Source: a virus. Taken from it: a DNA stretch of 64,000 nt. Positions 27,916 through 41,071 of the stretch are shown here, in pieces (within the stretch, counting starts at the first letter, position 1; every line of letters starts with the position of its first letter). The position numbers and the translations under genes were made by a program. The DNA is taken from positions 46,490 through 110,489 of IMG/VR virus record IMGVR_UViG_3300042569_002782; one strand, 5' to 3'. Under the pieces are notes generated by a model. That model saw only the letters and a list, made by a program, of their open reading frames with translations, was not told the origin of the DNA and made no database searches.

Positions 27916-29211
27916 TTATTCTACAATGATTAGATCATCAGATAGTGCTAAGTATTCTTGATTCATGCAAGTATCGGGGGTCATCCAAAGGGCCGAATAA
28001 TTATCCACTTGCTCGTATAGGTTAATCAAGTTGTCATCCCATGGCCTTGTAAGCCATTCTGCAATGGGTTGGTAATCTGCATTTACAGACTCTCTGATGT
28101 CAAAAATTTTCTTTACCTCATAACTCGGGGAAATATCAACTTGAGCAAGTTTACAATAGGTGACTGGAACTTCTTCCCCCGCACTATTAATTACTATAGA
28201 TGGCAGACTACCCAGTGGGTGAGCAACAAGAGATACTTCTGATTTACCCGTTGATGGTCCCCTCAGAAGGGAGATAGTCCCTGAAACAGAAACAGATTGT
28301 ATGGAAATTTTGGGGTCTGACCACTCGATCTTCCAACCAGTATTAAAAGTGGGTATTGCAATTTTAAATGTAAAGAATTGACCCGTACTATCCCTACTAA
28401 CTTCCACTGTTTCCACAAAAATCCAATCCGGATCAGGGCAGTATGGGTTATCAGGGTACGGTTGCCCAGGGTTATCAGGATCTTCGTTAAAACAGTTGGT
28501 TATAGATAGGGTGGCGCTACCCGTAATTACAGTGTTAGGTGGGCAACGGAATGTTATCTCAGAAAAAGAAGCCGCCCTGGGGAATTGCCAGTATAAGTAC
28601 GGCGCTCCAGAATAATATGGAAATACCCCATCGTAATTTCTCCATTCTAGGGTCGCATCATTGCAAAAAGCATATTTAGGTACGAACCTCCACCCTACCT
28701 CAGAATCTGTGCCACTGACGACATTCATTTCGTGACCAGATAAGGAATAATTCTCTACAGAATACAAAGCATAGAAGGGGGAATCGTCATAGGTCAATTT
28801 ATAAGCTATCAAATATTGGGAATCAGCCATCCCAACCAATTCTAAATTTATAATGACTGGGCCTATGTAAAGATTACCGTGCTCCCAAACTACGGTTCCA
28901 GGCTTGATGACTAAAAATTTATCGCCCCCTGATGCAACAACTTCTAGGGAATTAGGGCCAAACGGACTTTCCCCAGGCGGTAGATACACATAGGCAGACT
29001 TCCTATCTAGTCCAAAGTCAACATAGTATCGTTCCGATGCGGCAGGTAACCTACCATAAATAGGTCTACCACCTGGTACCCATTCAGTGGGTGTCTCAAA
29101 CAGGTTATTAGCCTCTTGAAACTGGACGGATAATATAGTACCAAATGTAGGATTAGAAGATGTCTGAATTTCCCCCCTACCCCCATTTAAAGGCGTGATA
29201 ATCTGGCTCAT
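27916..29211 (-). CDS. Baseplate structural protein, 431 aa
   Basis: MSQIITPLNGGRGEIQTSS is followed by beta-rich sequence throughout, with cysteine-containing loops (CFNEDPDNPGQPYPDNPYCP). It ends in an acidic stretch. The start overlaps the upstream gp6-like stop by 4 nt, and the stop is one base before the 964-aa gene, so the three are co-translated. No specific family recognised. Confidence 0.65.
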   Translation of the reverse strand: MSQIITPLNGGRGEIQTSSNPTFGTILSVQFQEANNLFETPTEWVPGGRPIYGRLPAASERYYVDFGLDRKSAYVYLPPGESPFGPNSLEVVASGGDKFLVIKPGTVVWEHGNLYIGPVIINLELVGMADSQYLIAYKLTYDDSPFYALYSVENYSLSGHEMNVVSGTDSEVGWRFVPKYAFCNDATLEWRNYDGVFPYYSGAPYLYWQFPRAASFSEITFRCPPNTVITGSATLSITNCFNEDPDNPGQPYPDNPYCPDPDWIFVETVEVSRDSTGQFFTFKIAIPTFNTGWKIEWSDPKISIQSVSVSGTISLLRGPSTGKSEVSLVAHPLGSLPSIVINSAGEEVPVTYCKLAQVDISPSYEVKKIFDIRESVNADYQPIAEWLTRPWDDNLINLYEQVDNYSALWMTPDTCMNQEYLALSDDLIIVE

Positions 29212-32200
29212 AGACTTAAGGTCCCTTCTTTATAGTCAGGCGGTTGGTAGGGGAAAGTAGTCCCAGTATACCAAGAGAGTTGGGGAACATCTGTATTGGA
29301 ACTAGGGTTCTCCCACACATAGGTTATTTTCTGATTAGAGTTAGAAAATCTCCCTGTATTGCGAGGTACTAGTGTTATTTGGGCTACTCCCAATTTAATC
29401 GAGGAGGTCTCCAATCCAAATTGAGAGATAATTTCCTCTTCACACCTGTAAAAAGAGACGTACCTCAGTAGGTTATCGGCAAATTCTTCAAATCTGGCCG
29501 TATTGGTGACTGTCATGTTTGTCCAGTTGGTCACCGTTGTTTGAGGTGTGAATGCTCTCATTACTCTATAGATATTCCTGCCATCCTCTGCTACAAGGGT
29601 GTCCTCTGCGTATTTGATATACTCCGGATTAAAATATGGGATGTATGTCCGGGAGTCAAATTCGTTTGTTCCAGCTTCTGAGGAGTCTATGAAAATACCG
29701 TTTTTGTAGTAAATTGAAAAGTCAAATAAGGGGCTTACGCTAGATGTGGCTGTATAGGATCTTACCGAATTACCATTTCTAAAGTAGGTTCTGTCCCCTC
29801 TGTAGAAAGTAAACATCCTGACAAATGTATTTATTTCCGTCAGCCGGGGGTAAAGAGAGGTTATTTGGATTTGGAAGCCACTGCCGGTGCCGCCCAAGTA
29901 ACTATTATCTATAGTCAGGACATCACCAATCGAGAACCCTCTTCCAAAATCAGATAACTCGTAGGAAATAATTGTATTCCCTGAGACTACCAAGTTAATG
30001 GATCCGTTGACCCCAACCCCATTGATCGGGTTGCCATATATTAAAGGTAGGTTAGTATAGGCACCGTTTCGGTAACCTGACCCCCCGTTGACCAAGTTGG
30101 TCGTCTTTATTCTGCCAGATACGCTATTATCTACTAGGTCGTCTAATTGCGACCTTAGCTCGAATGAAGGTGCAAGGTTGATCACTGAGCCATCATTGAT
30201 TAAGTCCTGAATAGATGTGCTGCTTGGTGTGAAGTACTTGGCGGCAATACAATAGGTAGGGGTCCCCCCTGAAACTTCCCTGTATTCTAAATACTGCCCA
30301 CATTTGAATCTAGGTTTGTATTTGTAAATGGGTAGCCCACCATTGCCATCTAGTACGGACACTTCTTTTATAATGCCTTGCTTTATTAATTCGCTAAAGT
30401 AATCTACGGTTAGTGCCCCATTGGGTTCGTAAGTAAAAGGCGCAATTACATAGGCGTACTTATTGACAGCCCCTTTCGTTACGTCAACATAGTTATAATG
30501 GGGGTCAGAAACAGCATCCGGACCGCTCCCAACCTGTGGTGTGTAAACCCAAGTTCCTGCTAAGTAGGACTGACCTTCAACTAGTTGATTGTAATTATTT
30601 GGCAAGCTAGAATTTAAAGCTGGTCCTATTTTATTTTCAGTCTGGGACCCGGTAATGTCATTCGTAGAAGGGAATAAGATAAAATTCTGAGCTACCAGCC
30701 AAGCTAATCTTCCGACAGTAGTGGTAGGTAGGAACTCACCGTCTGAGTAGTCATACTCAACGATTTCTGGGTCTATTGTTGTCCCCAGTGAATATTGGTA
30801 AGTATTATTTACGACCCATGCAGAATAAGTCTTTGCCGAAGAAATTTTTCCAGCTACAAAGGCACTGGGGATATCTGCTGAAGATCCAATTACTATGTTT
30901 TCAAGGACTACGAATAATTGATTATTGAAGAACACAATGTCCCCCAAACTGTATCTACCGGCAGTAAGTAACTTTATTTGCTTTAAAGCAAGATTACCGT
31001 ACACAGTTTGGTCGAATTTGTTTGTTGAATAGGGGCTATACGCTTCTTCTACTGGGTAGTATAAGGGGTTAGGGTTATTAACTACAATGAGGTCATCGCC
31101 ATTTAAAATAGTATTTACGGGTTCAAAATCATATACATTAGTATAAATAGCAGCGTCTTTACTCAGAAGAACAGGAGTATTGTAAGCTGCGGAGTAGTTA
31201 ATTTGAGGGTCTTTGAACCTACTGATAGAATCAAAAGTATTATAAAAAGCTGCATCAACATCACTTACGGTTGGGTTCGTGTCAGTTGGGAAAACATTTC
31301 CAGGGGTCAGTACTGTGGATAACCTATCCCTAAAATTCAAAGTTACAGGCTGATAATTAGAGCCATAGATACCATTGGCATCAACTTCAAGAGTTATGTT
31401 ATATTGAGTTTGGCTTAGAGTAATAGGGTACAGGTGGGCTTGATTTTCAATGGGGATCGAGAAATTAATTACATTTTGACCCCTTCTTATTTGGTCATCT
31501 GTTAATTCTATACCATTGGGTCCAAGCACAAAGAAAGAAACTTGTCCATTGGGCTTCGTAAAGTCAGACAAATAATTATAACCAAATCTGCTACTTCTAT
31601 TGGGTTGAACAGAAGTCAGAGTCCCTAAACCAAACATATCTATGAAGAAATTCTCCCAGTCTGCCTGGCTAACGGGATTCCTGCGTCGGATTAGGGAGAA
31701 AAATCTTTCTTGAACTTGAGCATATGTTTCTACATCACTGCCCCCTACCGCAGGTTCAGGATTGGTTACTACGGTGCTAGCTTCCCCGAGGTCTGGGGGA
31801 CCAGTAATTGAATTAGCCGGGACATTATAGATGTTACCTACAAATTTAGAATAAACAGGGATTTCAACTTCGGTCTTACCGGCAGGTATTGTGACACTAT
31901 ATGAGCTTACATATTCAAATCCTTGGCCGCCTGATAATTGGGGGTTGGATGTAAATACAGACCCGGATGGTACCGATAAGTCTGAATTTCTTGGTGCTAT
32001 TGACAACCTAACCAAAGCTGTAGCAGGGGTACCTAGTCTCCTTAGGGCGCCTAAAAATGGGCCTATCCATTCGATAAGGATCTTATTTGGTAGTTGATTC
32101 GCCCAAAATAAAAATTCACCTTGAGAAAAAGCCTGCCCCTCTAAAAGAACCGCAAGGGGATTCCCTGCACTGAAGTCATTGAGGGTTTTGTTAGACGCCT

Positions 32201-32834: not shown

Positions 32835-32856
32835 AAAAAAGCCCCCTTTCGGGGGC
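32835..32856 (-). terminator. Rho-independent terminator after tail tube gene
   Basis: GCCCCC-GAAA-GGGGGC followed by TTTTTT on the minus strand, 19 nt after the stop at 32875. The GAAA tetraloop and perfect stem make this the strongest terminator in the window. Confidence 0.88.
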
Positions 32857-32874
32857 AATTATTGAACCACAAAA

Positions 32875-33318
32875 TCAAGTTCTGTCCCAAATATTGACGG
32901 TCAGTTCCACTTCAATTTCCTGGACGTTTCCGCTGTCGCGATCAACGTTGGCAGTAGTGATTGATAGGAATTTACAACCGTAGCAGGTGTACGCGCCACC
33001 GGCTGGAGCAGATCCTGTACCAGTACAGTCCCTAGGGGTTACTGTAACGGTAACATCTTGACAATTGTAGTTTAACCAGAAGTTCTCTAATTGCTTGAAG
33101 ATCGTAGGATCATACGGAGCAGTAAGAGTAACATTATCTGCAGTTCGTGGGCCAACGACATGGTACTTTCGGTTTCCAGTGCCATTGGCGTATTCGCTCT
33201 TTTCGGAAGAATCTTTGATACCACTGAATTTTGTGAAAACAGCGATTAAAGACACCCCGTTGGGAGCTACGAACGATACCTCGTATTGCGACTTTGTTAA
33301 AGGTCTGAGAATTGCCAT
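32875..33318 (-). CDS. Tail tube-like protein, 147 aa
   Basis: MAILRPLTKSQYEVSFVAPN, then VYHVVGPRTADNVTL-like strands, FKQLENFWLNYNCQDVTVTV, and SITTANVDRDSGNVQEIEVE. The size and the strand-helix-strand pattern with a late NVDRDSGN.QEIEVEL segment fit gp19/T4-type tube subunits. A good ribosome site (AGAGGTGA) lies 5 nt before the ATG. It follows the capsid gene by 28 nt. A paralog starting with the same MAILRP is at 39862-40278. Confidence 0.65.
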   Translation of the reverse strand: MAILRPLTKSQYEVSFVAPNGVSLIAVFTKFSGIKDSSEKSEYANGTGNRKYHVVGPRTADNVTLTAPYDPTIFKQLENFWLNYNCQDVTVTVTPRDCTGTGSAPAGGAYTCYGCKFLSITTANVDRDSGNVQEIEVELTVNIWDRT

Positions 33319-33346: not shown

Positions 33347-36300
33347 TCAGGACAAGATGTTGGTGATCATAGCGCCAGAACCGATAAGACCAGATGCACC
33401 GAGGCCAACCAAGTTAACCACACGTTCGATGGTGATTTCAGCACGCACGACACGGCGTTCGCGAATGTAGTACTCCAATTTGTTATCGTAAAGGCTCTTT
33501 ATCCCTTGCTTCTGCATGTTTCTATGCAGTTCAGACTATATCATCGTTTTGTAAACAAAACGTCAGGCGCTCGTGGATTGTTCACCTGTTCTAGGCTACT
33601 TAATCTAGTCGTTGGACCTTGCTTTTATCCCTAAAAGCCTTGGCTGCTGATTGCCTTGTGTTTCAAGGAATTCACTCCTGAAACCGTCAGGTTTCCCAGC
33701 AATTCACCTAATTTCTTTTTATGTCAGACCCCAGTAGTTAAGGACGGACAGCGGGTGTTCCTGTGAGTTGATCATTTTTGTTAGCGTGAAGGTTATTTAT
33801 CCTCCACTTCTTCACATTTCTGCAAAGATCAGACTATATCTTCTTCCTTGAAATTCCTTATAAACCTTTGAAGAGTTTTTGACCTAAACCCGTTTTTCTT
33901 TGTGTCCAGATTTAATAATTGACCTAAGAGTATGTCCCCAGGTTTGTTATTTTCAATCCATACTTGTCTAATCTTATCCTTCATTCCCTCCAAGTCTTTA
34001 TTAGAGTTTGGGTGAGCATAACCCCTAGGGGTATTTGAAGAATTTAATCTTGCCTTTGAGATATTCATCCGCCTCTCTGGTGTCAATGATACACCTTTTA
34101 GAGACTCGGCAATACGAAAATTATGGGATTTAGACCTGACATAGTTTTTACGGAGAAATTCGTAGATTCTCTCACCCCCGACTGAACTCATTCTGAATAC
34201 TGCATACCATAGACCTTCATGGTCAAGGTACATTTTATTCAAAAGGCGGTGAAGTATAAAGTGTTGCCTCAAGGTGGGGTAGCACAGATTTTCAGGGTCC
34301 GTTTTACTTCCGCCTAGGCATTTTGGAACTATGTGGTGCTCTTCAGTTTTGTGGGACACAGGACGAGTTTTGGGGCATTGGTAAATTATTTGCCAATACC
34401 ACTTTTCCCATTTATTAAGAAAGTGACATTCAAGGAGTGGGGCGCTCGTGGATGGGTTATTATTTTCGGTATTCACCATCTAGTCGTTGAACCTTTTGAC
34501 TACAACTCTATTATAGCATAGAGTCCGAAATAGTCAACTTGGCTGCTGATTACCATAGCTTTCAAACTCTCGTTTGAAGCCGTAGGCTTCCCAGCAATTC
34601 ACCCCATTGATCTGCGGATCAGGCAGATAATTTGACGTTACCGTCAAACCACGCATTCAACTCGTTTGAAAGAAACGATGTTATTAACATACGTGTAACT
34701 GAAGGACGGAGTCGCAGCATTAGCACCACCCGCAGGCATGATCGAATCAGAAGGGCCGTTGGGGCTGTAGAACAGGAGGATGCCATTGGCGGGGAAGACA
34801 GGCTGCAAGGAGCCGTCGTTGGCCAAATAACGCCCTTCAGCTACGCGCAGGCCACGCTCAAGACCGAAGTAGCGAGCGATGACATCTGTGTCGATGCTAT
34901 CGGCGGAAGTGTACTTGATACGATCAAGGATCGCTTCGTTGGTCAGCAAGAGGTCGAAAACCGAAGTTCCAAGAACAGCGGAGTTCGGACGAATGCCGAT
35001 CTGGTTGGCAACAGCACGCTTCAGAGTCAGGATGTCCTCAATGGGATTAGAGGTTGCACCAGACCATGCGGCAGGGCCAGTGGCTGTGCCATAAGCGGTG
35101 TTGAAGGCGGTCCAGGTTGTAAAACCAAGACCAGTTTGTGAGCCAGGAGTCCCATTGTAGGGCTCGTATGGATTGTAGCTGCCAGTCACTGAAACAGCTT
35201 GAGCAACGGTGTACTCGTAGCTGTTCATCCATTATGTTATCGCGAGGGCTCTTTATCCCTTGCTTCTGCATGTTTCTATGCAGTTCAGACTATATCATCG
35301 TTTTGTAAACAAAACGTCAGGCGCTCGTGTCAGCTTCATTACTGTTCTAGTAGTATGCTGTTAGTCGTTGAACGTTCCGTCAATCCCTTGACGGCTTCGC
35401 TGCTGATTACCATAGCTTTCAAACTCTCGTTTGAAGCCGTAGGCTTCCCAGCAATTCACCCAATTTTCTAAATGAGATCAATCTCATAGGGCCAATGTGT
35501 TTAGCCTAGACATCGCATTGCGAGTCTCGACGGCGCGTAGCATTTGTTAACTCAGCGGCTCTTTATCCACTGATTCATTACCTTGTCGTTGGTAATGTTC
35601 AGACTATATTATTGCCCCACTATGTACACGATTACTGTACTTTGTAAGACATTGGGCGCTCGTGTCAGCTTCATTACTGTTCTAGTAGTATGCTGTTAGT
35701 CGTTGAACGTTCGTTTTCTCCCGAAAACGCTTCGCTGCTGATTGCCCACGCGGGGGTTCCAGCAATTCACCCAATTTAGAGTGGACCTACGCTGCGATCG
35801 AAATCGTTCGTAAAAAATAATCCACTTGTGCAGGACCTTCTCCTGCGTTCTCGATTCAATAATGTTATCGCAAAGGCTCTTTATCCTTTACTTCTCTCTG
35901 TTTCCAGAAAGTTCAGACTATATCTTCACCCTTATCAGGGTGCTGGGCGCTCGTGTCAGCTTCATTACTGTTCTAGTAGTATGCTGTTAGTCGTTGGACC
36001 TTGCTTTTATCCCTAAAAGCCTTGGCTGCTGATTACCATAGCATCAAACTTTCGTTTGAAGCCGTAGGCTTCCCAGCAATTCACCCAGTTTTTCTATCAG
36101 TTTTTCAACTGACGGAGGCTATCGATCTAACCTCTTCCAAGGTTGTTATCACAAAGGCTCTTTATCCTTTGCTTCTGTAAATTTACCATCTTTACAGTTC
36201 AGACTATATCACCACCCATTTTTGAATGATATCCAATCTAAGTCTTTTGAAGGTACCCAACCTTGCTCAAATTTACGAACCATGCGGGACACAGAAGTTG

Positions 36301-39127
36301 ATCTTCTTACTCCCACTAAAGTTGATAGCTTTACTCCACCACATCTATGGTGAAGCCACACATTATAAATTTGATCGGCGATCATCCAAAGATTTTTGGC
36401 TTGTCTACTTGTGGATGTAGCCGTGTTTCTATATGGGGGTATATTATAACCGTGCTTAGAAACAATACTCTTTCCTAAATTAGGGAGCTTTGTGTAAGCT
36501 TTAACTAAATGAGGATGCTTAGTGTTATTCAAAAACCTAGTTATACTTCTAGCTATAAACGGGGTCATTTCCATTTTACCTAATAAAAGATGTAGAATGT
36601 AATGTTCCCTCGGAGTTAAAGTAACTTTCCAGTGTCGATCTATATGCTCCCAGTTTTTGGGAAATAAGCATTCTGGGATGACGTGGTGTTCTTCTACTGA
36701 GCCTTTAAGATAGCTAGACCCGTTGGTCCTTCTTTTTTCGACTTTTTGGATTATACTCCAATACCACTTCTCATATTTACTTGAATAGTGGCAAGTTAGG
36801 TGTTGGGCGCTCGTGGATGGGTTATTATTTTCGGTATTCACCATCTAGTCGTTGAACCTTTTGACTACATTCCCATTATAGCATGGGAACCGAAATAGTC
36901 AACTTGGCTGCTGATTGGCCATTAAGTTGGAGGCTTTCCAGCAATTCACCCTATTATTCTTACCGCGCTAACTAGGCAACGGCAAGGCCCAAAGATTTAG
37001 GCAATTCCCATGCGACCACTTCCTGCTCCAGAGCATAGGGCTCGGAGTCGTAACGGCTTTGGACGTAGGGGATGTTTGTCATTTGTTAACGCAAAGGCTC
37101 TTTATCCCTTGCTTCTACATGTTTCCATGTAGGTCAGACTATATCTTTGCCTTACATTACCATGTAGGGCATTGGGCGCTCGTGGATTGTTCACCTGTTC
37201 TAGGCTACTTAATCTAGTCGTTGAACCTTGCTTTTATCCCTAAAAGCCTTGGCTGCTGATTACCATAGCTTTCAAACTCTCGTTTGAAGCCGTAGGCTTC
37301 CCAGCAATTCACCCAATTTATTTACGGCACAAACTAATTACCGTAAGCACGACGGAAGTCGTTGATAGCAACACCATGTTATCGTAGAGACTCTTTATTC
37401 CCTACCTCTGCATGTTTCTATGCAGTTCAGACTATATCATCGTTTTGTAAACAAAACGTCGGGCGCTCGTGGATTTTTCACCTGTTCTAGGCTACTTAAT
37501 CTAGTCGTTGAACCTTGCTTTTATCCCTAAAAGCCTTGGCTGCTGATTTCCCTCGCCTTTACGTTAGGGGTTCCCAGCAATTCACCCAATTTTACAACAG
37601 CAAGCTATTTACTGTTCCTTCAATTATGTTATCGCAGGGGCTCTTTATCCCTTGCTTCTGCATGTTTCTATGCAGTTCAGACTATATCATCGTTTTGTAA
37701 ACAAAACGTCAGGCGCTCGTGGAGTTTTCATCTGTTCTAGATTACTAACTCTAGTCGTTGAACCTTGCTTTTATCCCTAAAAGCCTTGGCTGCTGATTAC
37801 CATAGCATCAAACTTTCGTTTGAAGCCGTAGGCTTCCCAGCAATTCACCCAATTTTTCATAACCCCTCACGGAGTTAAGCGGCATATGGAATACCGAAGC
37901 GCAGGATACGTCCTGCACGAGTTGGAGTGTCTACCACCGGTGCTATGAATAATATACAAAACTTAACGTTTTGCTCTGCATGTTTCCATGCAGTTTAGAC
38001 TATATCATCATCTTTGCCTAAGCAAAGAGTCGGGCGCTCGTGGAAAGATTATTCTTGGGTCAGTCACTTTCTAGTCGTTGAACCTTCTTACTTCACTCTT
38101 ATTATAGCAACAAGAGACCCGAAGTAAACTTGGCTGCTGATTGCCTCTTTTGCATAGCAAAAGTAAGGTATCCCAGCAGTTCACCCGATTATTCGACAGG
38201 GGTCACCCCCTGAAGGAACCTCATTGATTCGCAATGTTGGTAGACGGTAGCATGAAACCTTGCGCGAGGGTGGTGAGACATTTGTTAACGTAGAGGCTCT
38301 TTATCCCCTACCTCTCTTTGTTTCCAAAGAGTTCAGACTATATCATCGTTTTGTAAACAAAACGCCCGGCGCTCGTGGATTTTTCACCTGTTCTAGGCTA
38401 CTTAATCTAGTCGTTGAACGTTCCGTCAATCCCTTGACGGCTTCGCTGCTGATTACCATAGCATCAAACTTTCGTTTGAAACCGTAGGCTTCCCAGCAAT
38501 TCACCGGATTTTCTTTGTTAAAAACAAAGCCACTCCTTTAAATGGGCAATATGTTATCGCAAAGGCTCTTTATCCTTCACTTCTTTACATTTCTGCAAAG
38601 GTCAGACTATATCATCATCCTTTAACTCCCATGCTGAGGAGTCAAGGAGCTGGGCGCTCGTGGAGTTTTCATCTGTTCTAGATTACTAACTCTAGTCGTT
38701 GGACCTTGCTTTTATCCCTAAAAGCCTTGGCTGCTGATTGCCTCTTTTGCATAGCAAAAGTAAGGTGTCCCAGCAGTTCACCCAGTTTTCTGCCATCATT
38801 AAAATGACAGGGACCCTAATTAATCCACACCTGCGTAGGTCTGTTGTAGCATTATGTTATCGTAAAGGCTCTTTATCCTTCACTTCTTTACATTTCTGCA
38901 AAGATCAGACTATATCATCAACTTGCAAGCAAGTTGTCGGGCGCTCGTGGATTGTTCACCTGTTCTAGGCTACTTAATCTAGTCGTTGAACGTTCGTTTT
39001 CTCCCGAAAACGCTTCGCTGCTGATTACCATAGCATCAAACTTTCGTTTGAAACCGTAGGCTTCCCAGCAATTCACCCGATTTTCATCCCAAGGTTACCC
39101 TTGAGCGGAACCGCCATGATTCATCAT
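33347..39127 (-). CDS. Major capsid protein, 14 exons joined by 13 group I introns, about 363 aa
   Basis: Exons on the minus strand: 39127-39119, 38849-38823, 38546-38542, 38278-38227, 37961-37893, 37620-37611, 37374-37340, 37079-36978 (or 36979), 36137-36130 (or 36129), 35856-35820, 35540-35503, 35229-34691, 33772-33741, 33475-33347. They total 1092 nt. The joined frame has VDPILTTLAQGF, RAGRILRFGKEQ, YALEQEVVAWELP, NPIEDILTLKRAVANQIG, ILDRIKYTSADSID, YFGLERGLRV, ILLFYSPNG and SYTYQLTGTPAVRPEYY. This is the order of motifs in Mu-type (HK97-fold) capsid proteins. The 5' splice sites were taken at the U.G pair of P1 and the 3' sites at the terminal G. A ribosome site (AAAGGA) precedes the ATG. 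The exon 8/9 junction is uncertain by 1 nt. No other capsid gene is in the window. Confidence 0.9.
33476..33740 (-). ncRNA. Group I intron 13 in capsid gene
   Basis: 265 nt. Exon end CCT pairs with GGGG. P3 AGGTG/CGCCT covaries against the other introns. P7 5' side has the variant GGTCCAACGACTA. P6 type C, P7.1 type 1. Ends AATTG. Confidence 0.85.
33773..34690 (-). ncRNA. Group I intron 12 in capsid gene, carries an HNH gene
   Basis: 918 nt. Exon end CACGT pairs with GCGTG around a large hairpin loop (TCGTTT/AAACGA). Two more stems follow (TTTGACG/CGTCAAA and ATCTGC/GCAGAT). P8 holds the HNH gene at 33829-34479. Ends AAAATG. Confidence 0.86.
33829..34479 (-). CDS. HNH homing endonuclease in intron 12, 216 aa
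   Basis: The HNH core is EEHHIVPKCLGGSKTDPENL, then YPTLRQHFILHRLL, with His/Asn ligands in the expected order. A C-terminal part with RIAESLKGVSLTPERR resembles the NUMOD-type DNA-binding helices of phage HNH enzymes. The ATG directly follows the P7 5' strand, so codons for NPSTSAP also form P3. The stop codon follows the P7 3' strand (GATATAGTC TGA). It would nick or cut intronless capsid alleles so that the intron is copied in. It starts with the same MVNTENNNPSTSA as the intron 8 enzyme. Confidence 0.88.
   Translation of the reverse strand: MVNTENNNPSTSAPLLECHFLNKWEKWYWQIIYQCPKTRPVSHKTEEHHIVPKCLGGSKTDPENLCYPTLRQHFILHRLLNKMYLDHEGLWYAVFRMSSVGGERIYEFLRKNYVRSKSHNFRIAESLKGVSLTPERRMNISKARLNSSNTPRGYAHPNSNKDLEGMKDKIRQVWIENNKPGDILLGQLLNLDTKKNGFRSKTLQRFIRNFKEEDIV
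35230..35502 (-). ncRNA. Group I intron 11 in capsid gene
   Basis: 273 nt. Exon end GGCT pairs with GGCC. P2 ATGAGA/TCTCAT, P6 type A, P7.1 type 3, P8 CGTTTTG/CAAAACG. Ends ATAATG. Confidence 0.87.
35541..35819 (-). ncRNA. Group I intron 10 in capsid gene
   Basis: 279 nt. P1 is unusually long-looped: AGTGGAT pairs with GTCCACT across about 34 nt that fold as CGAT-TTCG-ATCG. P6 type B, P7.1 type 3. P7 3' side is in TATAGTC as usual (followed by TGAAC). Ends AAATG. Confidence 0.85.
35857..36129 (-). ncRNA. Group I intron 9 in capsid gene
   Basis: 273 nt. Exon end GAGGT pairs with GCCTC. P2 TCAGTT/AACTGA with GAAA loop, P6 type C, P7.1 type 3. Ends TATTG. Confidence 0.86.
36139..36978 (-). ncRNA. 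Group I intron 8 in capsid gene, carries an HNH gene
   Basis: 840 nt. P1 is long: CTTGCCGT pairs with GCGGTAAG, with U.G at its end. The P8 loop holds the HNH gene at 36209-36844. The 5' site could be 1 nt later. Ends CCTTG. Confidence 0.85.
36209..36844 (-). CDS. HNH homing endonuclease in intron 8, 211 aa
   Basis: The HNH core is VEEHHVIPECLFPKNWEHID, then TLTPREHYILHLLLGKM. The C-terminus has a helical region with WLHHRCGGVKLSTLVGVRRS, which looks like a helix-turn-helix for DNA recognition. The first 13 residues equal those of the intron 12 enzyme, because they are encoded by the shared intron core, while the rest differs widely. The stop lies just before the P7 3' strand. Predicted to spread intron 8 into intronless capsid genes. 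Confidence 0.87.
   Translation of the reverse strand: MVNTENNNPSTSAQHLTCHYSSKYEKWYWSIIQKVEKRRTNGSSYLKGSVEEHHVIPECLFPKNWEHIDRHWKVTLTPREHYILHLLLGKMEMTPFIARSITRFLNNTKHPHLVKAYTKLPNLGKSIVSKHGYNIPPYRNTATSTSRQAKNLWMIADQIYNVWLHHRCGGVKLSTLVGVRRSTSVSRMVRKFEQGWVPSKDLDWISFKNGW
37080..37339 (-). ncRNA. Group I intron 7 in capsid gene
   Basis: 260 nt. Exon end CGGT pairs with GCCG. No clear P2. P6 type C, P7.1 type 1, P8 longer and A/T-rich. Ends AAATG. Confidence 0.86.
37375..37610 (-). ncRNA. Group I intron 6 in capsid gene (shortest)
   Basis: 236 nt. Exon end ACAGT pairs with GCTGT. There is no separate P2. P6 type C, P7.1 type 1, P8 CGTTTTG/CAAAACG. Ends ACATG. Confidence 0.87.
37621..37892 (-). ncRNA. 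Group I intron 5 in capsid gene
   Basis: 272 nt. Exon end CGGT pairs with GCCG (U.G at the splice site). P2 TAACTCC/GGGGTTA, P6 type C, P7.1 type 2, P8 CGTTTTG/CAAAACG. Ends AATTG. Confidence 0.88.
37962..38226 (-). ncRNA. Group I intron 4 in capsid gene, shortened 3' end
   Basis: 265 nt. Exon end GAAT and guide GGTTC are the same as in intron 1. P2 CAGGGG/CCCCTG, P3 TCGGGTG/CGCCCGA. The 3' end ACGTTAAG lacks the stem-loop present before the terminal G in the others. The 3' site was fixed by reading frame. Confidence 0.8.
38279..38541 (-). ncRNA. Group I intron 3 in capsid gene
   Basis: 263 nt. The 5-nt exon CCCAT pairs with GAGTGG using almost its whole length. P3 is CCGGTG/CGCCGG, a covarying pair compared with the other introns. 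P2 CTTTGTT/AACAAAG, P6 type A. Confidence 0.87.
38547..38822 (-). ncRNA. Group I intron 2 in capsid gene
   Basis: 276 nt. Exon end GGAT pairs with GTCC region of the guide with a U.G at the splice site. P2 TCATT/AATGA, P6 type C (AAGGCTTTTAGGG arm), P7.1 type 2. Ends ATATTG. Confidence 0.87.
38850..39118 (-). ncRNA. Group I intron 1 in capsid gene
   Basis: 269 nt. Exon end GAAT pairs with guide GGTTC; a P2 stem CTCAAGG/CCTTGGG follows. P4, P7 and P3 (GGGTG/CGCCC) are intact, P8 is AACTTGC/GCAAGTT and P6 is type B (GCGTTTTC arm). Ends ATAATG. Confidence 0.88.
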
Positions 39128-39249: not shown

Positions 39250-39276
39250 AAAAAAAGGAGCCCTTTTCGGAGCCCC
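39250..39276 (-). terminator. Rho-independent terminator before capsid gene
   Basis: GGGGCTC and GGGCTCC pair (one G.U and one U.G) around CGAAAA, followed by seven T on the minus strand. It lies 23 nt after the stop at 39299. It separates the decoration-like gene from the capsid leader (39128-39249), which contains an ATTGCC/GGCAAT hairpin but no gene. Confidence 0.75.
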
Positions 39277-39861: not shown

Positions 39862-40278
39862 TTAGGTTAGGAGTTTTGATACTCTGGATGGCTGGAAGGT
39901 AAGGCTGAATTGGGCTACCTCTCCACTATCACGACTGAATTTTGGTAAGGAATAGCCAATTAGTTGGCACCCGGTGAGTCGATATTGGGAGGTTACTTCT
40001 ATGCCATCCGTTGGGGTGATCCCAAACTCTAGTGTGAAGGAATCTTCGGACCCCTTCTTAGTACCAAGGTGTTCTACACAGTAGTTAATAAGATCTTTAT
40101 AGTAAATCGGGTCAAAGCATGATCCAATCGTGATAGGGTCATATGACACTGTTGTGCCAATCTTGTGGGCCTTTAATTCAGATGCAGTTATAAAACTTGC
40201 CCTATAATTCATTTCCCCGACATCCTGTGACAGGGAGATTTCTATGTGACATTCTGCAATTGGTCTAAGGATGGCCAT
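39862..40278 (-). CDS. Tail tube-like paralog, 138 aa
   Basis: I choose the ATG at 40278 (MAILRPIAECHIEISLSQ) because the frame upstream would run into the preceding gene and MAILRP matches the tube-like protein at 32875-33318. The end KFSRDSGEVAQFSLTFQ matches the other's VDRDSGNVQEIEVE. The two are paralogs on either side of the capsid gene. One may be the tube and the other a tube terminator or initiator; which is which cannot be told. Confidence 0.62.
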   Translation of the reverse strand: MAILRPIAECHIEISLSQDVGEMNYRASFITASELKAHKIGTTVSYDPITIGSCFDPIYYKDLINYCVEHLGTKKGSEDSFTLEFGITPTDGIEVTSQYRLTGCQLIGYSLPKFSRDSGEVAQFSLTFQPSRVSKLLT

Positions 40279-40309
40279 TTTAGTTCTCTTTTTGTAAATT
40301 TGTGTAAAA

Positions 40310-41071
40310 TCAACGGTAATCAACGATACAGCGGCATCTGTCATAGCATCTGCATCTTTGTCCAGGAAGTGGTAAGGAACCGATTGGTTGCCAACCTAAC
40401 TTCTCATATTCTTTGCAATCTCTGCAAGTTTTCTTATCTTTTTTGGCAACTCGCATCATTTCTTTATGGCCTTGTTCTTCCTTAACTAGGTAATCCCCCA
40501 GTTGGAAAAATGCGTAAGCTGGGGTAACAAGGTAGCGAGAAACCCTAGAAAAAACCCCTTGCCAGGTTTGCCCCACACCGGAATCAATCGAATTCTGTAT
40601 GGCATTCTGGACCTCGGGATCCTCCGAATCGTAATCAGGATCCTCTAAAATATCCCAATCATAGTCGCCAGATGGACCTTTGGAGGCAAAATCCATTTCG
40701 TTACCAACGATGGAGATTACATTACTATCAAATCGAGCCTTTGTCACATCGAGGAATTTAAGTAATGGTGGCACCAATTGTCCAACAACTGTTGGCCATG
40801 CTTTTTCCAATTTTGCTTTAGGCTTCGATGATGCTGACCCAAGGTAGACTCCTGCTAAAGATGCCTCTAAGGTTTTGTCAACCATGGCACGAGAAAACTC
40901 GTCCCACTTTATGTCTTTGTCCTTCAGAGACTTAACTAAAAGCTTAGAATCCTTAAGCATCATACTCTCTAGGTTCCCGATGGTTTTAGCTTTTTTGGCC
41001 AGGGATTCGGCATTAGAGAAAAAATCTCCCCTCCTTTTAGTGACAGAGCCAATCAGGGAGAGGAGATCCAT
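40310..41071 (-). CDS. Mu-F-like minor head protein, 253 aa
   Basis: Helical N-terminal 130 residues, then a typical C-terminus: KDKKTCRDCKEYEKLGWQPI, then LPLPGQRCRCYDRCRCIVDY. The C..C and G.CRC..CRC pattern is that of SPP1 gp7/Mu F-type minor head proteins, which sit near the portal and assist head assembly. Position directly after the protease/scaffold gene supports it. The N-terminal part is not one I can name. Confidence 0.72.
   Translation of the reverse strand: MDLLSLIGSVTKRRGDFFSNAESLAKKAKTIGNLESMMLKDSKLLVKSLKDKDIKWDEFSRAMVDKTLEASLAGVYLGSASSKPKAKLEKAWPTVVGQLVPPLLKFLDVTKARFDSNVISIVGNEMDFASKGPSGDYDWDILEDPDYDSEDPEVQNAIQNSIDSGVGQTWQGVFSRVSRYLVTPAYAFFQLGDYLVKEEQGHKEMMRVAKKDKKTCRDCKEYEKLGWQPIGSLPLPGQRCRCYDRCRCIVDYR

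Follow-up and report, generated by a model that had tools for sequence, protein, structure and literature searches.

Thirteen group I introns in the putative major capsid gene of a tailed phage

Several intron-rich viral and organellar genes have been described. In the Zeta group of crAss-like phages, the major capsid gene is split into five ORF fragments, that is, by four insertions (PMC7886860). Jug phages of gut Bacteroides carry on average 18.5 group I introns per genome, and splicing of 37 of 76 predicted introns was supported by metatranscriptomes; in the accessible part of that report, the introns are spread over many genes, with terL in two or three fragments, and no single gene comparable to the one presented here was found (PMC12363816). 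Several group I introns per gene, small exons and exon skipping are described for Bastillevirinae genes and for orf142 of Twort (PMC11878797, citing Landthaler and Shub 1999). Faustovirus E12 has a major capsid gene of 13 exons and 12 introns, five of group I and seven spliceosome-like, with endonucleases in two of the introns and a message demonstrated by RNA-seq (PMC6247863), and the mitochondrial cox1 gene of Agaricus bisporus contains 18 group I introns and one group II intron, with exons down to 3 nt (PMC2987802).

The window analyzed here comprises 64,000 nt, corresponding to bases 46490-110489 of a 110,489-base virus record, which is itself a fragment. On its minus strand lies a capsid gene in which 13 group I introns account for 4,725 of 5,781 nt (81.7%), leaving a spliced frame of 1,056 nt and 351 codons without stops (Table 1). 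A first-pass annotation, made from the letters alone, had put a capsid gene with about 81% intron at 33347-39127, and these ends proved exact, with the start codon at 39127 and the stop ending at 33347; the exon join RFG-KEQ was likewise correct. Its single open frame after splicing held, but with 351 rather than about 363 codons and with different first exons.

Compared with the four insertions of the Zeta-group capsid gene, the present gene has 13, with exons of 5-10 nt, and belongs to a phage of another lineage. It resembles the Faustovirus gene in being an intron-rich capsid gene with endonucleases, although that is an amoeba virus of an unrelated lineage. With cox1 of A. bisporus it shares the character of an essential gene serving as a reservoir of group I introns with patchy gain and loss (PMC2987802); cox1, however, is mitochondrial, with introns over 1 kb that mostly carry an endonuclease, whereas the present introns are mostly 240-280 nt long and lack one. 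For the Bastillevirinae, at most three introns per gene are described (PMC11878797), compared with 13 here. No phage gene with more than three to four group I introns was found in the literature searched, which mostly did not include subscription journals. Calling the number exceptional, as the first-pass annotation did, is therefore justified for phages in the searchable literature, with three to four introns per gene, but not for genes at large, given cox1 of A. bisporus and the faustovirus capsid gene. Within this literature search, the novelty is the number of introns per phage gene, well above the reported three to four, and neither the intron type nor homing nor intron-rich viral capsid genes are new. 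The maximum for a single phage gene goes from about 3-4 to 13, in a gene needing large output, and exons as short as 5 nt can probably be accommodated between ribozymes in phage transcripts.

Table 1. Features of the intron-bearing capsid gene and its surroundings (positions in the window)
Feature	Position	Strand	Length	RF00028 (bits)	Remarks
Terminator-like hairpin	39257..39276	-			just upstream of the capsid transcript
Exon 1	39119..39127	-	9 nt		MMN, start codon; matches L013:4177 start; P1 GAAU/GUUC
Intron 1	38850..39118	-	269 nt	98.2	after codon 3; last base G
Exon 2	38823..38849	-	27 nt		LQQTYAGVD
Intron 2	38547..38822	-	276 nt	82.6	after codon 12
Exon 3	38542..38546	-	5 nt		CCCAT; same site used in L003, L034, L036
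Intron 3	38279..38541	-	263 nt	89.6	in codon 14
Exon 4	38227..38278	-	52 nt
Intron 4	37950..38226	-	277 nt	93.7	after codon 31; last base A
Exon 5	37893..37949	-	57 nt
Intron 5	37621..37892	-	272 nt	88.1	after codon 50
Exon 6	37611..37620	-	10 nt		AAGGAACAGT
Intron 6	37372..37610	-	239 nt	89.7	in codon 54
Exon 7	37340..37371	-	32 nt
Intron 7	37080..37339	-	260 nt	93.6	after codon 64
Exon 8	36999..37079	-	81 nt
Intron 8	36138..36998	-	861 nt	46	after codon 91; endonuclease gene inside; below cut-off
Homing endonuclease ORF, intron 8	36209..36844	-	211 aa		phrog_655, E 6e-21
Exon 9	36130..36137	-	8 nt		GAAGAGGT
Intron 9	35857..36129	-	273 nt	101.6	in codon 94
Exon 10	35820..35856	-	37 nt
Intron 10	35541..35819	-	279 nt	57.7	after codon 106
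Exon 11	35503..35540	-	38 nt
Intron 11	35230..35502	-	273 nt	85.7	in codon 119
Exon 12	34691..35229	-	539 nt		holds the Pfam signal and much of the PHROG capsid signal
Intron 12	33773..34690	-	918 nt	57.0	in codon 299; endonuclease gene inside
Homing endonuclease ORF, intron 12	33829..34479	-	216 aa		phrog_655, E 5e-30
Exon 13	33741..33772	-	32 nt
Intron 13	33476..33740	-	265 nt	80.6	after codon 309
Exon 14	33347..33475	-	129 nt		including stop
Terminator-like hairpin	32841..32856	-			follows the tail-tube-like gene (32875-33318) downstream of the capsid gene; the colinearity of L013 stops at the U-run of the hairpin

A search of viral contigs with the single long exon as query gave 80 contigs. 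One of them, L013, contains the capsid gene uninterrupted (1,056 nt, 351 codons), and the spliced gene of the window shows 97.6% nucleotide and 99.1% amino acid identity to it with zero indels. The four short exons of 9, 5, 10 and 8 nt were placed against this homologue, and the same 14 exons were recovered by an unsupervised spliced alignment, whose inputs were the protein, a T before each donor and one intron core per intron. As judged from these alignments, the exons of 5, 8, 9 and 10 nt are real. The N-terminus reads, exon by exon, MMN-LQQTYAGVD-PI-LTTLAQG; a start MAVPL in another frame was dropped, since L013 and Synechococcus phage S-CBWM1 both start with MMN-L. For annotation, the locus is a warning, as gene callers find only one exon and the endonucleases and the capsid is missed.

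The Rfam group I model RF00028 (gathering score 50 bits) revealed 12 matches that exceed this score (57-102 bits, E 8e-12 to 4e-25) and, in an intron interrupted by an endonuclease gene, a 13th of 46 bits (E 1.6e-9 in a 6.7-kb search). All 13 lie on the minus strand, and no other Rfam family came over its cut-off anywhere in the window. The count of 13, for which the first-pass annotation had named such a covariance search as a check, is thus upheld. Helices were counted only in the 11 introns without an endonuclease gene, where P3, P4, P5, P6, P7, P8, P9 and P9.1 show standard pairs in 97.1% of the cells. Double-sided changes occur in 27 of 48 pairs, compared with 13.8 in shuffles and two to four with one strand slid, and none of 500 shuffles reached the observed count. 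The suggested covariation of P3 among copies is seen at three of seven pairs, and covariation is strong in P6, P8, P9 and P9.1; P4 and P7, recognized in the blocks together with P8 from the outset, are invariant among the introns and, as they never vary, carry no information on covariation either way. Between P7 and P3 lies a foldable 35-nt linker with stems that are changed yet paired in the introns, which could be the P7.1/P7.2 element of subgroup IA2.

The exon joins are equally regular. At each of the 13 donors the last base is a U that faces a G of the guide, as expected for the proposed joins at P1 U.G pairs, the guide pairings comprise three to seven pairs (weakest in intron 13), and the guides fit their own exon better than the exons of other sites (0 of 20,000 permutations as good). 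The terminal G that had been assigned to every intron is found in 12 of 13; intron 4 ends in A. This A-end is common to L001, L003 and L034, in three allele types (window/L001, L003 and L034), G is the last base in other introns of this site, and the join there is exact in L013. Joining the exons around intron 4 differently (donor AACAT, acceptor after TTTTG) would give a terminal G and keep the frame; this was rejected because it changes two residues, shows no U.G guide pairing that we could find and conflicts with L013.

The spliced protein matches phrog_1005 from residue 2 to 335 with 181 bits (E 6e-53), the long exon alone with 88 bits, and PF03864 with 33.6 bits. From the Mu/HK97-type capsid assumed at first, the Mu-type profile thus stands over the whole protein, but the HK97 fold is without confirmation: an AlphaFold model of the intron-free capsid with 16 relatives had a pLDDT of 29.6, too poor for use on this question. 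The spliced gene is colinear with the capsid gene of S-CBWM1, an isolated relative, in which it is uninterrupted and annotated as major head protein. The setting is similar in both, with a head maturation protease and portal upstream and a tail-tube-like gene downstream, and the best explanation of the locus is that a tailed phage has here its one major capsid gene. The clade likely infects cyanobacteria, since a photosystem reaction-centre gene (PF00124, E 8.6e-86) is present in G024, a related contig of 277 kb, and the nearest isolate, S-CBWM1, infects Synechococcus; such a host is not shown for the present phage, which is probably a virus of freshwater cyanobacteria with the host inferred. 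Beyond the gene, a 160-aa ORF at 39862-40344 is missing in L003, L013, L034 and L036, which have about 30 bases there; its product is weakly similar (20%) to the tail-tube-like protein.

Among 81 loci, introns occupy 15 common sites, with 0-13 per locus; 45 loci lack introns throughout the stretch covered. The window and L001 have 13 introns, L036 has 12, L003 nine and L034 at least 11, its contig end being reached; L035 has about 11 by hand and 12 RF00028 matches. The core motif differs in L027 and L035, and L027 was parsed again as L084. L005 (introns at sites 3, 13, 93, 101 and 298) and L006 (sites 3, 12, 25, 31, 106 and 298) are identical over 534 nt of the big exon but show 32 nucleotide differences in the final 1,044 nt of the gene. 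Different intron sets beside an identical exon stretch mean that intron content turns over faster than that exon changes, and recombination is probably involved. In the tree, introns group by insertion site (20 label changes compared with 50.4 when shuffled), and introns at sites 3 and 31, which have the target GAAT in common, cluster in L006 and relatives, suggesting that introns now and then move to a new site where the guide target is the same. At sites 12, 13, 25, 64, 106 and 118, the 12-nt exon flanks fully separate intron-bearing (plus) from intron-free (minus) alleles, as predicted for co-conversion of exon flanks with the introns, although this is a correlation without a cross experiment. 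Intron 8 exists in L034 and L036 as a 280-nt form without the endonuclease gene, and relatives have introns of endonuclease size, judged by length only, at 10 of the 15 sites. Active homing with fast intron turnover is inferred from these patterns, the endonuclease activity from knowledge of the family. Both endonuclease ORFs of the window start inside the P7-P3 linker, read through the ribozyme core and have their first residues in common, MVNTENNNPSTSA.

We hold with high confidence that the capsid gene of a tailed phage was invaded by mobile group I introns at 13 sites and is spliced to a 351-codon message, in which the intron structures, the coding frame, its selection, the presence or absence of introns at fixed sites, the endonuclease genes and the intron-linked exon signatures are observed, and the self-splicing chemistry, endonuclease activity and host are inferred. 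The pre-mRNA would fold as 13 separate ribozymes, each pairing the upstream exon end with its internal guide (P1, with U.G at the cut); guanosine would cut, and the joined exons would form the capsid message, a scheme with which the joined junctions of L013 and L025 agree. Introns would be gained and lost through homing between co-infecting phages, with intron-borne HNH endonucleases cutting intron-free alleles and repair copying the intron together with short exon flanks. The family model, the covariation, the uninterrupted near-identical copy and the relatives with other intron sets all support the original reading, in which the record's only capsid gene holds 13 group I introns. Against it stand the A-end of intron 4 and the serial splicing of 13 introns from a highly expressed gene, which looks costly.

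A decaying or defective copy, in which introns piled up while virions use another capsid gene, could explain the one intron without terminal G, and the records are only fragments. No second capsid copy was found in the 110-kb record or in the 279-kb contig behind L001, however, so that the intact capsid gene elsewhere that would have refuted the first-pass annotation did not turn up; a second copy is unlikely but not excluded, because the former is a fragment and the latter is not shown to be complete. The spliced frame, moreover, has no stops, differs from that of L003 (nine introns) by 24 silent and three replacement codons and from that of L004 (six introns) by 107 silent and 12, again without stops in either, a pattern that in sequence comparison demonstrates purifying selection on the spliced frame across intron-bearing alleles. 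As several distinct intron-rich alleles also persist in independent assemblies, we consider decay very unlikely. An assembly artefact, with repeats among similar introns inflating the count, is hardly credible and largely refuted: intron blocks at different places are long and 71-77% identical, which can confuse assemblers, but the 279-kb contig, from another dataset, has the same 13-intron gene and is 100% identical over 16.6 kb, L002, from a third, is 99.98% identical over 4.9 kb, L003, L034 and L036 carry related but different intron sets, and each exon is needed and present once.

Whether the introns are spliced in nature depends mainly on L013 and L025. The flanks of L013 are plus-only at sites 13, 31, 64, 93, 106 and 118 and minus at sites 12, 25, 101, 298 and 309, a mosaic that fits the fully spliced message of a phage carrying six introns or more and does not fit a gene that introns had never entered. 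Each segment of L025 matches L007 at 98.8-100% identity, but introns 31, 106 and 298 are precisely absent while 3, 12 and 25 remain, as would be expected of a partly spliced message. In scans of 2.9 million viral contigs, the joined plus-flank junctions sought at sites 31, 106 and 118 were found in capsid genes only in L013 and L025; the pattern matches L132, L133, L136 and L138-L143 contain no capsid gene. Going by their dataset numbers (IMG 3300012770 and 3300012708), we take both contigs to derive from freshwater metatranscriptomes. They might instead be DNA alleles whose introns were lost when they recombined with spliced cDNA, which is quite conceivable though not likely: their dataset type is without confirmation, L013 runs through the upstream terminator-like hairpin, and the joined plus signature of site 298 is also present in DNA contigs (L021 and, off register, L035). 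Yet the colinear part of L013 stops on a terminator U-run (GGGGGCTTTTTTG) and then jumps, at L013:5743-5837, into a capsid exon (window 35194-35100), which might be a chimera as in cDNA assembly, and L025 starts just after a conserved upstream TATAAC element; terminator-like sites in the region are no commoner than in shuffles. Both contigs look like spliced cDNA, an RNA origin being unproven and resting on the dataset numbers and sequence signs. The precise joins with plus flanks indicate a spliced RNA intermediate even if both are DNA, as precise splicing at the joined sites is needed either way; splicing in nature is therefore strongly suggested by the contigs but not proven, in the absence of RNA or protein of the present phage. 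If L013 is RNA, the A-ending intron is spliced accurately. It is also possible, if clearly unlikely, that only some introns self-splice well and that exon skipping yields several in-frame forms, with the full-length capsid minor or regulated. Introns 4, 7, 10 and 13 have guides that could also pair, in frame, with donors further upstream (exons 1, 2, 5 and 8); intron 10, for instance, makes six pairs with the last bases of exon 2. The skips so predicted would join exon 1 to 5, 2 to 5, 2 to 11, 5 to 8 and 8 to 14, and exon skipping by phage group I introns has been published (PMC11878797, with the Twort work cited there). These guide fits may, however, only mirror shared site codons (AAT, GAT, GGT), L013 has the full-length join, and there is no RNA for skipped forms.

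Returning to invasion of the capsid gene by mobile introns, one extension remains doubtful, namely a turnover hotspot, with introns changing faster than silent mutations, in which shared guide targets lead to in-frame skipping and alternative capsids, together with accurate splicing of the A-ending intron. The loci form a natural allele series, ranging from none to 13 introns over 15 common sites and including alleles whose coding sequence is the same for long stretches, which makes intron cost, homing speed, the route of loss and the splicing order of many ribozymes testable. Outside the window, a DNA primase gene is split by a further three group I introns (L082:2645-3721, record bases 28144-29220), with phrog_25243 halves to either side.
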